DNA from: Dissulfuribacter thermophilus
Lineage (GTDB): Bacteria; Desulfobacterota; Dissulfuribacteria; Dissulfuribacterales; Dissulfuribacteraceae
NCBI RefSeq assembly: GCF_001687335.1
Contig: NZ_MAGO01000012.1
Span: 1-64,000, forward strand
Direction: 5' to 3'
Length of the DNA stretch: 64,000 bases
Below the pieces are notes generated by a model. It did not search any database. It was not told the DNA's origin and saw only the letters and a program-made list of their open reading frames with translations. This document shows, piece after piece, positions 11,653-44,746 of the stretch (the first letter of the stretch is position 1; every line of letters begins with the position of its first letter). The position numbers were made by a program, and so were the translations under genes.

Positions 11653-11669
11653 TGCTGCTGTCCTTTCTC

Positions 11670-11750
11670 GTATTTGCTTACAGGGCACCCCATCTACTGC
11701 GTTGTCGGGCATTCGACGTACGGGGAGTACGCCTTCATGCCCTCCGCCTT
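11670..11750. repeat. Partial copy (A) of the 109-bp palindromic repeat
   Basis: These 81 bases match the reverse complement of 23273-23353 with about eight mismatches by eye, roughly 90% identity, starting with GTATTTGC. The outer inverted arm found at 23245 is missing here, so this copy is truncated. It lies directly upstream of the tolR ribosome-binding site, inside the unusual tolQ-tolR spacer. Confidence 0.75.
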
Positions 11751-22892: not shown

Positions 22893-22946
22893 GATTATTT
22901 TATTTGTAACCCCTCTCAGGGCACTGAGCCGCAAGAAATGTATAAC

Positions 22947-23229
22947 CCCAAATTATGCACTGCGAAAGAGGGCAAAAATAAATTTTCTTTCTATATCAAC
23001 TAATTGCCTCATTGCAACCTATTGCTGACCCTGTACAGTGTCTGTACAGGGCAGGACATTCACCTTTTTGGTGCCGCAAAATTCATGCTGTTTTTGCCCT
23101 CTTTCTCATCCCTTCAGGATTGGCGTTTTTGCCCAATCTTCTTTGTTGCTCGGGGCTTGAAGTACCTAAGTACGTCTTCGCCCCTCGCGCCTCGAATCTT
23201 GGGCAAACTCGTCAATTGCATAATTTGGG
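22947..23229 (+). mobile_element. MITE copy 1 (283 bp, 13-bp TIRs, ATAAC duplication)
   Basis: The element starts CCCAAATTATGCA and ends with the exact inverse TGCATAATTTGGG. ATAAC lies immediately before (22942-22946) and after (23230-23234), a 5-bp target duplication. The interior has no convincing gene and contains several hairpins. One of these (CCTGTACAG/CTGTACAGG at 23030-23050) is absent from the second copy. The second copy at 26021-26278 is in inverse orientation. No transposase with matching ends is present in the window. Confidence 0.88.
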
Positions 23230-23244
23230 ATAACATGCCAATTT

Positions 23245-23353
23245 GTATTTGCTTACAGGGTGCCGTAGATACAAGGCAGAGGGCATGAAGGCGTACTCCC
23301 TGTACGGCGAATGTCCTACAACGCAGTAGATGCGGTGCCATGTGAGCAAATAC
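23245..23353. repeat. 109-bp palindromic repeat (copy B, complete)
   Basis: It begins GTATTTGCTTACAGGGTGCC and ends with the approximate inverse (arms of about 28 bp, roughly two-thirds matched), with GTACT/GTAC palindromes inside. Two bases separate its end from the stop codon of the downstream-facing efflux gene, and 15 bases separate it from MITE copy 1. A truncated relative is at 11670-11750. No target duplication is seen. Confidence 0.75.
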
Positions 23354-23355
23354 GA

Positions 23356-24879
23356 CTATTTTCTTTGGGTGCGCATCAATATCAATAAAATCAGGAAGAT
23401 ACTCCCTATTGCTCCAAAGACAAAGGACTCTCTGAACGTATCTTTAAATCCATGACTCAGTGCATGTATCCCTTGGGCCCATGTAAGTAGGCCTCTTGCC
23501 CTGATGTAGGCAAGGTCTGGTGACATAAATTGACCGAGAAGACCAGATACGTTGGAGATAAACTCCTTGCCTATCTCCAGGTTCTGCATTGCTCCAATGC
23601 CTTCAAAATGGATTGCCTGCCTCATTTCGAGGGTATTTGTGGCAACGGCAGTGCCAATAGAACCACCAAGAAACCTCAAATAGTGCATGAGACTCACCCC
23701 CAAGTCTGTTTTGGAGCCAAGAGGGCCTAGGGCCATTGCAGAAACCGGGGCGAAGAATGAACCGAGTGCTATTCCCAATGGGATCGTTATGAGAGCGGCC
23801 TTTACAGATGGGGTATAAAAATTGAGGCTTGGGATGAGGAAAAAAGTAGTATAGAGGTACATGATTGTACTTACAGTAACTACTTTAGACGGGCCAAATC
23901 GGTCACTCAGGATACCTGCCACAGGGGACAGTATGGCTATGAATATGGCGAAGGCCAGCATGTGCACCCCAGTATCAAAGGTGGAAAGCCCCTTGAGGTT
24001 CTCGTAATAGAGGGGGAGAAGATAAAAGACCTGGTAGATAGAAAGCCCCATTATCAAAAAGTAGAATCCCATTGAAAGGGCATATTCCTTTACCTTGAAA
24101 ATGGAAAAGTCTATTAATGGATTCTTGGAGTTGATTTCTGATACAAGGTAAAGCAAAAGACATATCAATGCTGCCAGCGCCATGACTACTATCTTTGTGG
24201 ACTGCGTCCAGCCGAGTTGTTGTCCTTTTGACAACACTACGAGGATAAGGACTGTAAATGCCCCTAGGAGGCCATAACTCAAAAAATTGAATTTAAGCCT
24301 CTCCCTGTGTTTTGAAATCATTGGGAGGTAAAAGAGCCCTGCCACGAAATTGAGGATGCCCACAGGCAAATTTATGTAAAAAACCCATCTCCAACTGAGG
24401 TGTTCCGTAATCCAGCCTCCAACAGTAGGCCCGATTGATGGGGCAAAGCTGACACCCATGGCATAGATGCCCATGGCGAGTCCGTGTTTTTCCGGTGGAT
24501 AGATGGCAAAAAGGATAGTCTGGGCACTGGCCATGATAAATGCCTCGCCAAGTCCCTGAGTTACTCTCGACGTTATCATCTCAGGAAGGCTACCCGCCAT
24601 ACCGCAAAAAGCGCTGGAGATGGTGAAGACAAATAGCCCGGTCAAAAATAACCACTTAAGGCCAATAACCCTTCCCAAGTTATGAGTTAGAAGGAGTCCT
24701 ACTGCAGCGGCGATCATATAGGATGTTATGACCCATTGGACTCCATACAAGTCAGTAGACAGCGGGCCCATCATCTTTGGTACGATTACGTCCACTACCG
24801 TGGTATCGAGAATGGCCATGAATGAGCCAGTCATGACAATGATGGTCAAAAATGTTCTGTAGAGTGGAGAAATGGTCAT
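23356..24879 (-). CDS. emrB: DHA2-family MFS multidrug transporter, EmrB type
   Basis: The 507-residue protein has 14 predicted membrane helices. Family motifs include ILDTTVVDVIVPKM in helix 1 and the motif C region GVSFAPSIGPTVGGW (about 155-170), which marks antiporters. With a membrane-fusion partner and a TolC channel it exports hydrophobic drugs or bile-like compounds across both membranes. The start overlaps emrA by four bases (ATGA). The stop codon lies two bases from a palindromic repeat. Confidence 0.9.
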   Translation of the reverse strand: MTISPLYRTFLTIIVMTGSFMAILDTTVVDVIVPKMMGPLSTDLYGVQWVITSYMIAAAVGLLLTHNLGRVIGLKWLFLTGLFVFTISSAFCGMAGSLPEMITSRVTQGLGEAFIMASAQTILFAIYPPEKHGLAMGIYAMGVSFAPSIGPTVGGWITEHLSWRWVFYINLPVGILNFVAGLFYLPMISKHRERLKFNFLSYGLLGAFTVLILVVLSKGQQLGWTQSTKIVVMALAALICLLLYLVSEINSKNPLIDFSIFKVKEYALSMGFYFLIMGLSIYQVFYLLPLYYENLKGLSTFDTGVHMLAFAIFIAILSPVAGILSDRFGPSKVVTVSTIMYLYTTFFLIPSLNFYTPSVKAALITIPLGIALGSFFAPVSAMALGPLGSKTDLGVSLMHYLRFLGGSIGTAVATNTLEMRQAIHFEGIGAMQNLEIGKEFISNVSGLLGQFMSPDLAYIRARGLLTWAQGIHALSHGFKDTFRESFVFGAIGSIFLILLILMRTQRK

Positions 24880-26000
24880 AGCCTCTTGATCTCCACCTCG
24901 CCTCCGAGTCCAACTTTTAAAAGATGGAGTTTCCCTTCTGTGATCTTGATCCTAATTGGGATCCTCTGGGCTACTTTTGTAAATTCACCGGCAGATACGT
25001 CCCTTGGAATAAGGGCAAAGGTAGCAGACGAGGCAGGAAGCACTGACTCCACTACTCCCTTGAAGGTTTCATCAGGATAGGCGTCTATGTGAATGGTTGC
25101 AGGGGAGCCTGGTTTTACACCATGGATTTTCCCCTCCTCGAGGAGGACGAGGATATACACATCTTTTGGGTCAACTAGACTGTATATTGTTCTGCCGGGA
25201 AGCACCACATCCCCTTCTGACACATATCTTTTGGCCACCCTACCATCAATGGTGCTCCTTAAGGTGCATTCATTGAGGTCCTTTTGGGCGATTTTTATTT
25301 CAGCCTTTATGGCTGATATGGACTCTTCAACTGCTTCAAAGGCCTTTTGGAGTTCTTTTGTCTTAGCCCTTTTTACTTTTGCGAGATCGAGATTCTCCTC
25401 AGCCTTTTTTATTGATGCCTTAATTGCATCAATTTCTTTTAAGGTGGAAAGGTACTTCCTTTTTTGGGCTTTGAGCTTAGTAGTGATTGATTCTAGTGTT
25501 TTTTTAGGAACTACTCCTTTTTTAAATAGATTGCTGTAGCGTTCGTTATCACGTTTTAGGTCTTCGATGACGACCTCCAATGCCTTTGCACGCTCTTCTA
25601 ATGAGGCCTTTTTCTTGGTCAATTCATCCACTGACTGCCTTGCAATACGTTGGTTCAGTTCCAGCTCCTTTTCTACACGTAACAGGCGGAGTCCTAGTTC
25701 CTCTTTTTTCTTTTGCTCGGCCCTGAGTTTGGCCTTTAATGCATCCAGTCGATTTTTAAAATTTCTGTCATCGAGTCTCGCAATTACCTCACCTTTTTTA
25801 ACGGTATCTCCCTCTTTTTTACTAAGCTCAATAATTCGTCCAGATACGTGATCGAATCCAAGGTTGATGAGGCTATCCGTCCTGACAAATACTGCGTCGG
25901 TTACGGCATAATGCATCCTGTGGACCACGAAAATTATGGTGAATGTTACCAGACACAACACACCTATTATTAGTATAAATGTGGCAACACGTTTTCCCAT
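24876..26000 (-). CDS. emrA: HlyD/EmrA-family membrane fusion protein
   Basis: This 374-residue protein has one N-terminal membrane helix (about 7-28). It then has the first half of a lipoyl domain (GRIIELSKKEGDTVKKGEVIARLD), a very long coiled coil (about 75-245), the second lipoyl half (LRSTIDGRVAKRYVSEGDVV) and a beta-barrel domain. It bridges EmrB and TolC in the periplasm. The MITE copy at 26021 lies 20 bases upstream of its start, so the promoter or operon link to lysE was altered by that insertion. Confidence 0.9.
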   Translation of the reverse strand: MGKRVATFILIIGVLCLVTFTIIFVVHRMHYAVTDAVFVRTDSLINLGFDHVSGRIIELSKKEGDTVKKGEVIARLDDRNFKNRLDALKAKLRAEQKKKEELGLRLLRVEKELELNQRIARQSVDELTKKKASLEERAKALEVVIEDLKRDNERYSNLFKKGVVPKKTLESITTKLKAQKRKYLSTLKEIDAIKASIKKAEENLDLAKVKRAKTKELQKAFEAVEESISAIKAEIKIAQKDLNECTLRSTIDGRVAKRYVSEGDVVLPGRTIYSLVDPKDVYILVLLEEGKIHGVKPGSPATIHIDAYPDETFKGVVESVLPASSATFALIPRDVSAGEFTKVAQRIPIRIKITEGKLHLLKVGLGGEVEIKRL

Positions 26001-26020
26001 CCTGATCCCCTTTCAATTAA

Positions 26021-26278
26021 CCCAAATTATGTAATTGGCGAGTTTGTCCTTTGATAGCGAGGCGAGAGGGGCGAAGACGTACTTGGGTACTTCGAACCCC
26101 AAGCAACAAAGAGACCTGGGCAAAATCGCCAATCCCGAAGGGCTGCCAAAGGGGGCAAAAACAGCATGAATATTGCGACATTAAGAAGGTGAATATTAAG
26201 CAATAGGCTACAATAAAGTAATTAATTGATATAAAAAGAAAAATCATTTTTGCCCCCTTTCGCAGTGCACAATTTGGG
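26021..26278 (-). mobile_element. MITE copy 2 (258 bp, inverse orientation, ATTAA duplication)
   Basis: The ends are CCCAAATTATGTA and TGCACAATTTGGG, 11 of 13 bases inverse-matched, flanked by ATTAA on both sides (26016-26020 and 26279-26283). Its reverse complement follows copy 1 along the whole length, about 80-85% by eye, apart from an indel of about 25 bases in the middle. The right duplication contains the stop codon of the lysE-type gene; the left end is 20 bases before emrA. Confidence 0.88.
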
Positions 26279-26279
26279 A

Positions 26280-26939
26280 TTAAGCCTTGAAATGAGTATA
26301 CGCACTCACAACAAACCAGCTTCCAAATAAAACAAGGCAAATGGCACAACATCTTATTATTGTCCTGTAGTGGTGGTCCCCAATAAGGGCACTACCTTTG
26401 CTAGTACCAAAACTTACGATTGAATACCAGGTATAATCTGCAGCAATGTGACCAATAAAAAACGAAATTATGCCAATAGAGCCGAACTTGATGGCGCTGG
26501 TTAAGTATCCAAGGCCAATAGTCACCCACCATAGCGTCCAATAAGGATTGGAAATACTGAAGATGATTCCAAGTAGCAAGGTGTTTTTTCCGTTTGGATT
26601 ACTAACTTCTTGTTTTTTCTCTGCAAAGGAAAGACTGAGGTTAGATGCCTCTTTGAACATGGAATAGCCCATCCAAAGGAGCATTATTCCTCCAATGAAG
26701 GCAATGGTACCCATGACCATAGGGATCTTGAGGTAAGGTCCAAGCCCCAGGAGAATAAGTATTATTAGACAGAGTTCTAGTAGGCTATGACCAGTAATAA
26801 TGAGTGGCCCTGCCCAAAAACCCTTTTTAATGGATTCTGCAATAGTTACCGTAAGAAGAGGGCCTGGCATAAGGGCACCGCTTAGGGCGAGGATGAAGCT
26901 AGTCACAAAAATACTTGGAATACTTATGAGTTCATCCAT
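26280..26939 (-). CDS. LysE/RhtB-family amino acid exporter
   Basis: The 219-residue protein has about six membrane helices. It starts with the family pattern FILALSGALMPGPLLTVTIAES, followed by GHSLLELCLIILILLG and a conserved SNPYWTLWWVTIGLGYL segment. Such proteins export amino acids or small metabolites. The start is set at 26939 because the longer frame (to 26987) would overlap tolC and lacks the family N-terminus. Its stop codon TAA lies within the target duplication of MITE copy 2. Confidence 0.83.
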   Translation of the reverse strand: MDELISIPSIFVTSFILALSGALMPGPLLTVTIAESIKKGFWAGPLIITGHSLLELCLIILILLGLGPYLKIPMVMGTIAFIGGIMLLWMGYSMFKEASNLSLSFAEKKQEVSNPNGKNTLLLGIIFSISNPYWTLWWVTIGLGYLTSAIKFGSIGIISFFIGHIAADYTWYSIVSFGTSKGSALIGDHHYRTIIRCCAICLVLFGSWFVVSAYTHFKA

Positions 26940-44586: not shown

Positions 44587-44710
44587 CCCAGCCTATGCAG
44601 CTTGAAAGTTTGCAGAAGATGCAAGGCCGATGGGGCGCAGATGTACTTGCTATTCTTCAAGCCCTTTACAACACATTAGATTCGGTAAAATTGCGAGCCC
44701 CTTGTGGCTT
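44587..44710 (-). repeat. Probable third, decayed MITE copy (partial)
   Basis: By eye this stretch aligns with the first half of MITE copy 2: CCCAG..TATGCAG at the end, AGTTTG, GGGGCG-AGA-GTACTTG, CTTC.A-CCC, ACAAC, GGTAAAAT-GC. Many substitutions are present and the second half is not recognisable. Confidence 0.45.
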
Positions 44711-44746
44711 CAAGGGTCTAAGACATTTGAAGTTAATTTCTATATT

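Follow-up and report, generated by a model that had tools for sequence, protein, structure and literature searches.

Abundant MITEs of Dissulfuribacter thermophilus and its relatives share their ends with IS1380-family elements, a probable source of their transposase

What are the two similar, oppositely oriented sequences that enclose a pair of transporter genes in Dissulfuribacter thermophilus, and what moved them there? An earlier note on a 64,000-nucleotide stretch of this genome (the window) read them as independent insertions of a non-autonomous transposon family whose helper lies outside the window. That reading holds, and the explanation that very probably accounts for them is that they are non-autonomous MITEs mobilised in trans by an IS1380-type transposase and probably derived from an IS1380-type element. 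The note had no view of the three subfamilies or the link to IS1380, and both the 27-bp insert in copy 1 and the number of copies escaped it; all are described below.

Two inverse elements of 283 bp and 258 bp are present with boundaries exact to the base, each between its own 5-bp duplication (Table 1). The ends of copy 1, CCCAAATTATGCA/TGCATAATTTGGG, form a 13-bp inverted repeat with 13/13 positions paired, and those of copy 2, CCCAAATTATGTA/TGCACAATTTGGG, pair at 11/13. The copies are 85–88% identical over nearly their full length, and the emrA and emrB named in the note as lying between them are genes for a HlyD/EmrA-like protein and an emrB-like MFS transporter. Neither element contains a gene: a 111-aa open reading frame (ORF) at 26017-26352 that runs across copy 2 is a chance frame, although an annotation might list it as a hypothetical protein. 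The length of 283 bp is correct for copy 1 and does not carry over to the family, which measures ~256 bp, the excess being a 27-bp insert.

Table 1. Positions of the elements, their ends, duplications and hairpins in the window.
Feature	Position	Strand	Basis
Target duplication ATAAC, left flank of copy 1	22942..22946	.	sequence
MITE copy 1, subfamily A, 283 bp	22947..23229	+	
Left terminal inverted repeat of copy 1, CCCAAATTATGCA	22947..22959	+	
Hairpin 1 of copy 1, stem arms 22961-22978 and 23091-23108	22961..23108	+	
27-bp palindromic insert in copy 1, CCCTGTACAGTGTCTGTACAGGGCAGG, not in family consensus	23029..23055	+	
Hairpin 2 of copy 1, arms 23119-23141 and 23194-23216	23119..23216	+	
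Right terminal inverted repeat of copy 1, perfect, TGCATAATTTGGG	23217..23229	-	
Target duplication ATAAC, right flank of copy 1	23230..23234	.	
Target duplication ATTAA, copy 2 side	26016..26020	.	
MITE copy 2, subfamily A, 258 bp, lysE-emrA junction	26021..26278	-	
Hairpin 1 of copy 2, arms 26143-26161 and 26247-26265	26143..26265	-	
Target duplication ATTAA, copy 2 far side, contains lysE stop codon	26279..26283	.	
Partial subfamily C copy, same window	44587..44726	-	

An inverted pair surrounding two transporter genes could be a single composite unit that carried emrA-emrB, a reading that is virtually impossible here: the duplications at the two copies differ, and a relative from another genus of the same family (G002) retains the order lysE-emrA-emrB facing ruvA with neither element at the same gene junctions, which excludes a composite transposon. 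In this relative, 19 nt separate the lysE stop from the emrA start; removing copy 2 and one duplication from the present sequence leaves a gap of 16 nt, and in the reconstructed empty site neither the lysE stop nor the ribosome-binding region of emrA is disturbed. Similarly, ruvA and emrB nearly abut in the relative and are separated here by a spacer of ~460 nt containing copy 1 and a further repeat. Two independent insertions in the host lineage, as the note had proposed, are the simplest reading, and loss of both copies from the relative is less likely. Copy 2 entered the short lysE-emrA gap and left both ORFs unbroken. The further repeat is a second inverted repeat of ~110 bp, TATTTGCTTACAGGG..GAGCAAATA, at 23243-23353 adjoining copy 1; copies 88–90% identical to it lie at 11668-11750 and at the loci L055 and L015/L146, and part of it is similar to the interior of subfamily C.

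The family extends far beyond the window. Searches with three sequence queries, one per subfamily (copy 1 and the subfamily B and C queries, merged), place it at no fewer than 76 distinct sites in the 2.52-Mb, 27-contig genome, a lower bound on copy number. Copy 1 as query gave 43 matches, with eight full-length ones besides itself among the matches listed. The end pattern occurs 342 times in this genome against 58 for a reversed-pattern control, counts that suggest roughly 140 elements. The elements fall into three subfamilies with the ends CCCAAATTATGCA (A), CCTAAATCCTGCA (B) and CCCAGATTATGCA (C), those of type A reading CCCAAATTATGCACTGCG.../...CGCCAATTGCATAATTTGGG in their longer form. 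All but three of the 48 full copies are 253–259 bp long; two of the exceptions have the 27-bp insert and at the third, L184, the element end was mis-set. Internally deleted copies, down to ~60–90 bp, retain both ends. An exact 5-bp duplication flanks 34/48 full copies, seven more match at 4/5 positions, and the target consensus over the 48 is WTWAW. These are the features of a MITE: short, non-coding and multicopy, with terminal inverted repeats and target-site duplication.

Could the repeats instead be chromosomal sequences under selection, such as structured RNAs or terminator or processing sites, whose hairpins serve the neighbouring genes? The constant length is in keeping with this, as is intergenic placement: 43/48 full copies lie outside ORFs, and when empty sites are reconstructed, the junction falls within an ORF of at least 100 aa in 5/48 cases, versus 358/445 random positions in the same flanks. 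The A and B copies also share a fold, a terminal repeat followed by two long hairpins, which is maintained by paired changes: 95.9% of cells are paired and both sides have changed in 24 pairs versus 10.0 in shuffles, counts that are inflated by sequence kinship. However, paired change in the terminal repeat is expected from end recognition, and paired changes are likewise to be expected from palindrome repair. Selected repeats are further contradicted by exact duplications of differing 5-bp targets, by empty orthologous sites and by an Rfam search with the element that gave no match, so that we regard this alternative as very improbable. For insertions by non-autonomous MITEs, the preferred reading, the hairpins may still have a secondary role for neighbouring genes.

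Among relatives, the element is present in 24/46 genomes of the class, representing 13/22 genera, and two genomes from other classes have matches to its right half. Copies in relatives measure 254–258 bp, most of the full copies inspected have a 5-bp duplication, and duplication-flanked copies occur in several families of the class. The searches that the note had called for, with the whole element as well as its 13-bp ends, recovered many copies with their own duplications, and those elsewhere have edges that match these ends. Conservation of the element as part of the gene spacers, which would have counted against a transposon, was not seen. Identity between families reaches 95% over the full length, which may reflect horizontal spread or recent activity. 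The element was not found in searches of phages, plasmids and viral contigs.

Which transposase moves these elements? The ends point to the IS1380 family (NF033539; PF13701; e.g. IS1247 and ISEcp1), whose members, like the MITEs, have CCC-type ends of 13–20 bp and duplicate 5 bp of AT-rich target. IS1247 has repeats of 16/13 bp and a 5-bp duplication (PMC3281130). The MITEs have both IS1380-type traits, a CCC.. end of ~13–16 bp and an AT-rich duplication of 4–5 bp. A profile search found PF13701 transposases in 14/60 relatives, and NF033539 (NCBIfam) assigns the transposases to IS1380. The exact CCCAAATTATGCA stands at the right edge and in the right orientation in seven PF13701 loci, five in the class and two from the genomes of a separate scan, where 0.01 were expected (100 shuffles). 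Truncation or degeneration affects most of the transposase loci that bear the exact end. Complete IS1380 elements (loci L139 and L140), of 1673 bp in a Bipolaricaulota genome and 1718 bp in a Chloroflexi genome, have CCC ends and are flanked by the duplications TTCAT and TTAAT. Subfamily C agrees with the IS1380 ends at 16/17 positions on the left and 19/20 on the right, subfamily A over 13–15 bp and subfamily B at fewer positions. Relatives thus hold autonomous partners that share the 13-bp A end and 17–20 bp of the C ends, and the IS with the same ends that the note had proposed to look for is found there, outside the window. No IS was found to match subfamily A or B in its subterminal sequence. 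One further end, CCTAAAACCTGCA, near the transposase of G025, faces the wrong way and was not counted.

From these shared ends, an IS1380-family transposase is the probable helper of the MITE group. No PF13701 transposase was detected in the genome of D. thermophilus itself, nor in five relatives with several MITE copies each (G001, G002, G010, G027 and G039); in the host, the helper may have been lost, lie in an assembly gap or reside elsewhere. The absence leaves room for another DDE family that duplicates 5 bp, of the IS1634 or Tn3 type for instance, with convergence explaining the IS1380-like end, the more so as the genome lacks an IS1380 transposase yet has PF01609 transposases. Tn3-type ends start with GGGG and span ~38 bp, which counts against a Tn3-type helper. 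The PF01609 transposases of the genome were rejected as helpers: no facing ends of this type surround their genes. Given also the seven IS1380 loci with the exact 13-bp end, a helper from another family is improbable. Two of the PF01609 loci adjoin a complete subfamily C copy. On contig C16, subfamily C copies sit directly before PF01609 transposase genes; one of them (C16:24632-24887, L171) shares its left flank, aagagcaatata, with the copy at C1:229204-229461 (L172), likely by duplication of a segment.

With an IS1380-family helper, a DDE transposase supplied in trans would recognise the ~13–20 bp ends and move the element into an AT-rich 5-bp target, WTWAW, which is duplicated in the process. 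The MITEs probably descend from an element of IS1380 type that lost its transposase gene: IS1380 elements found here are 1.67–1.72 kb long with that gene, whereas the MITEs have ~255 bp and none. The left half would have kept a hairpin resembling the leader of the transposase gene, and the right half would hold a second hairpin. The IS1380 leaders at L137, L138 and L140 have a long stem around a small CACC..GGTG hairpin; at L137 the ribosome-binding site lies in the 3' arm, directly before the start codon. Such leaders may prevent read-through transcripts from being translated, as in IS10 and IS50. The exact motif is present in 4/6 IS1380 leaders versus 0.08 expected, and in 7/9 A, 12/21 C and 0/18 B elements. 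The left halves of the MITEs are arranged in the same way, their small hairpin lying at position 84–88. This likeness to the leader is structural, with no long sequence match in the interior, and as a structural lead it suggests descent from an IS1380 leader through deletion of the transposase gene.

Subfamilies A and B are 90–95% identical in the right half versus 53–64% in the left, and the hairpin 2 region is the part most conserved between them. The halves thus have separate histories, probably through recombination between copies. An unlikely alternative is a long-lived two-hairpin lineage of constant length whose ends track different IS1380 helpers and whose exchanged right hairpin is selected as a structured RNA or transposase-recruiting site.

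The MITE group is real, abundant and new; the kind of element is already known. RUP-type MITEs are likewise intergenic, hairpin-forming and high in copy number, and the ends and target rules of Correia, ERIC and RUP elements differ from those here. Geobacter uraniireducens belongs to the same phylum as the host. Its MITE Chunjie, compared here by description, is 235 bp long, has ~38 copies whose ends are intact, in addition to partial copies (PMC10969869), and, like the present MITEs, is mostly intergenic, with insertion in an operon. Correia and ERIC (PMC10969869) resemble the MITEs here in high copy number, hairpin formation and intergenic location. TIMEs, derived from Tn3, share AT-rich duplications of 5–6 bp and mobilisation in trans (PMC4133298) but, unlike the MITEs here, bear Tn3-type ends. 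The limited literature searched held no earlier IS1380-linked MITE. For a MITE group of high copy number, found in about half of the genomes searched in the class, a probable helper family can now be named, by which IS1380 would join the transposase families with such parasites, and the hairpin resembling a leader gives a testable explanation of how a MITE originates from an IS. In practice, such repeats break assemblies and yield spurious ORFs in annotation.

Two smaller observations concern other repeats. The truncated elements L041 and L050 continue into another common repeat, AACAGGTAGAAGG..CCTGCCTGTACAAAAGCCAGAGG, which points to further repeat families in the genome. The 27-bp palindromic insert is present in two subfamily A copies at differing positions; no duplication was seen at the insert sites, and its core pattern has just four occurrences genome-wide, namely in copy 1, at C8:116674-116696, and at C2:41206 and 41687.
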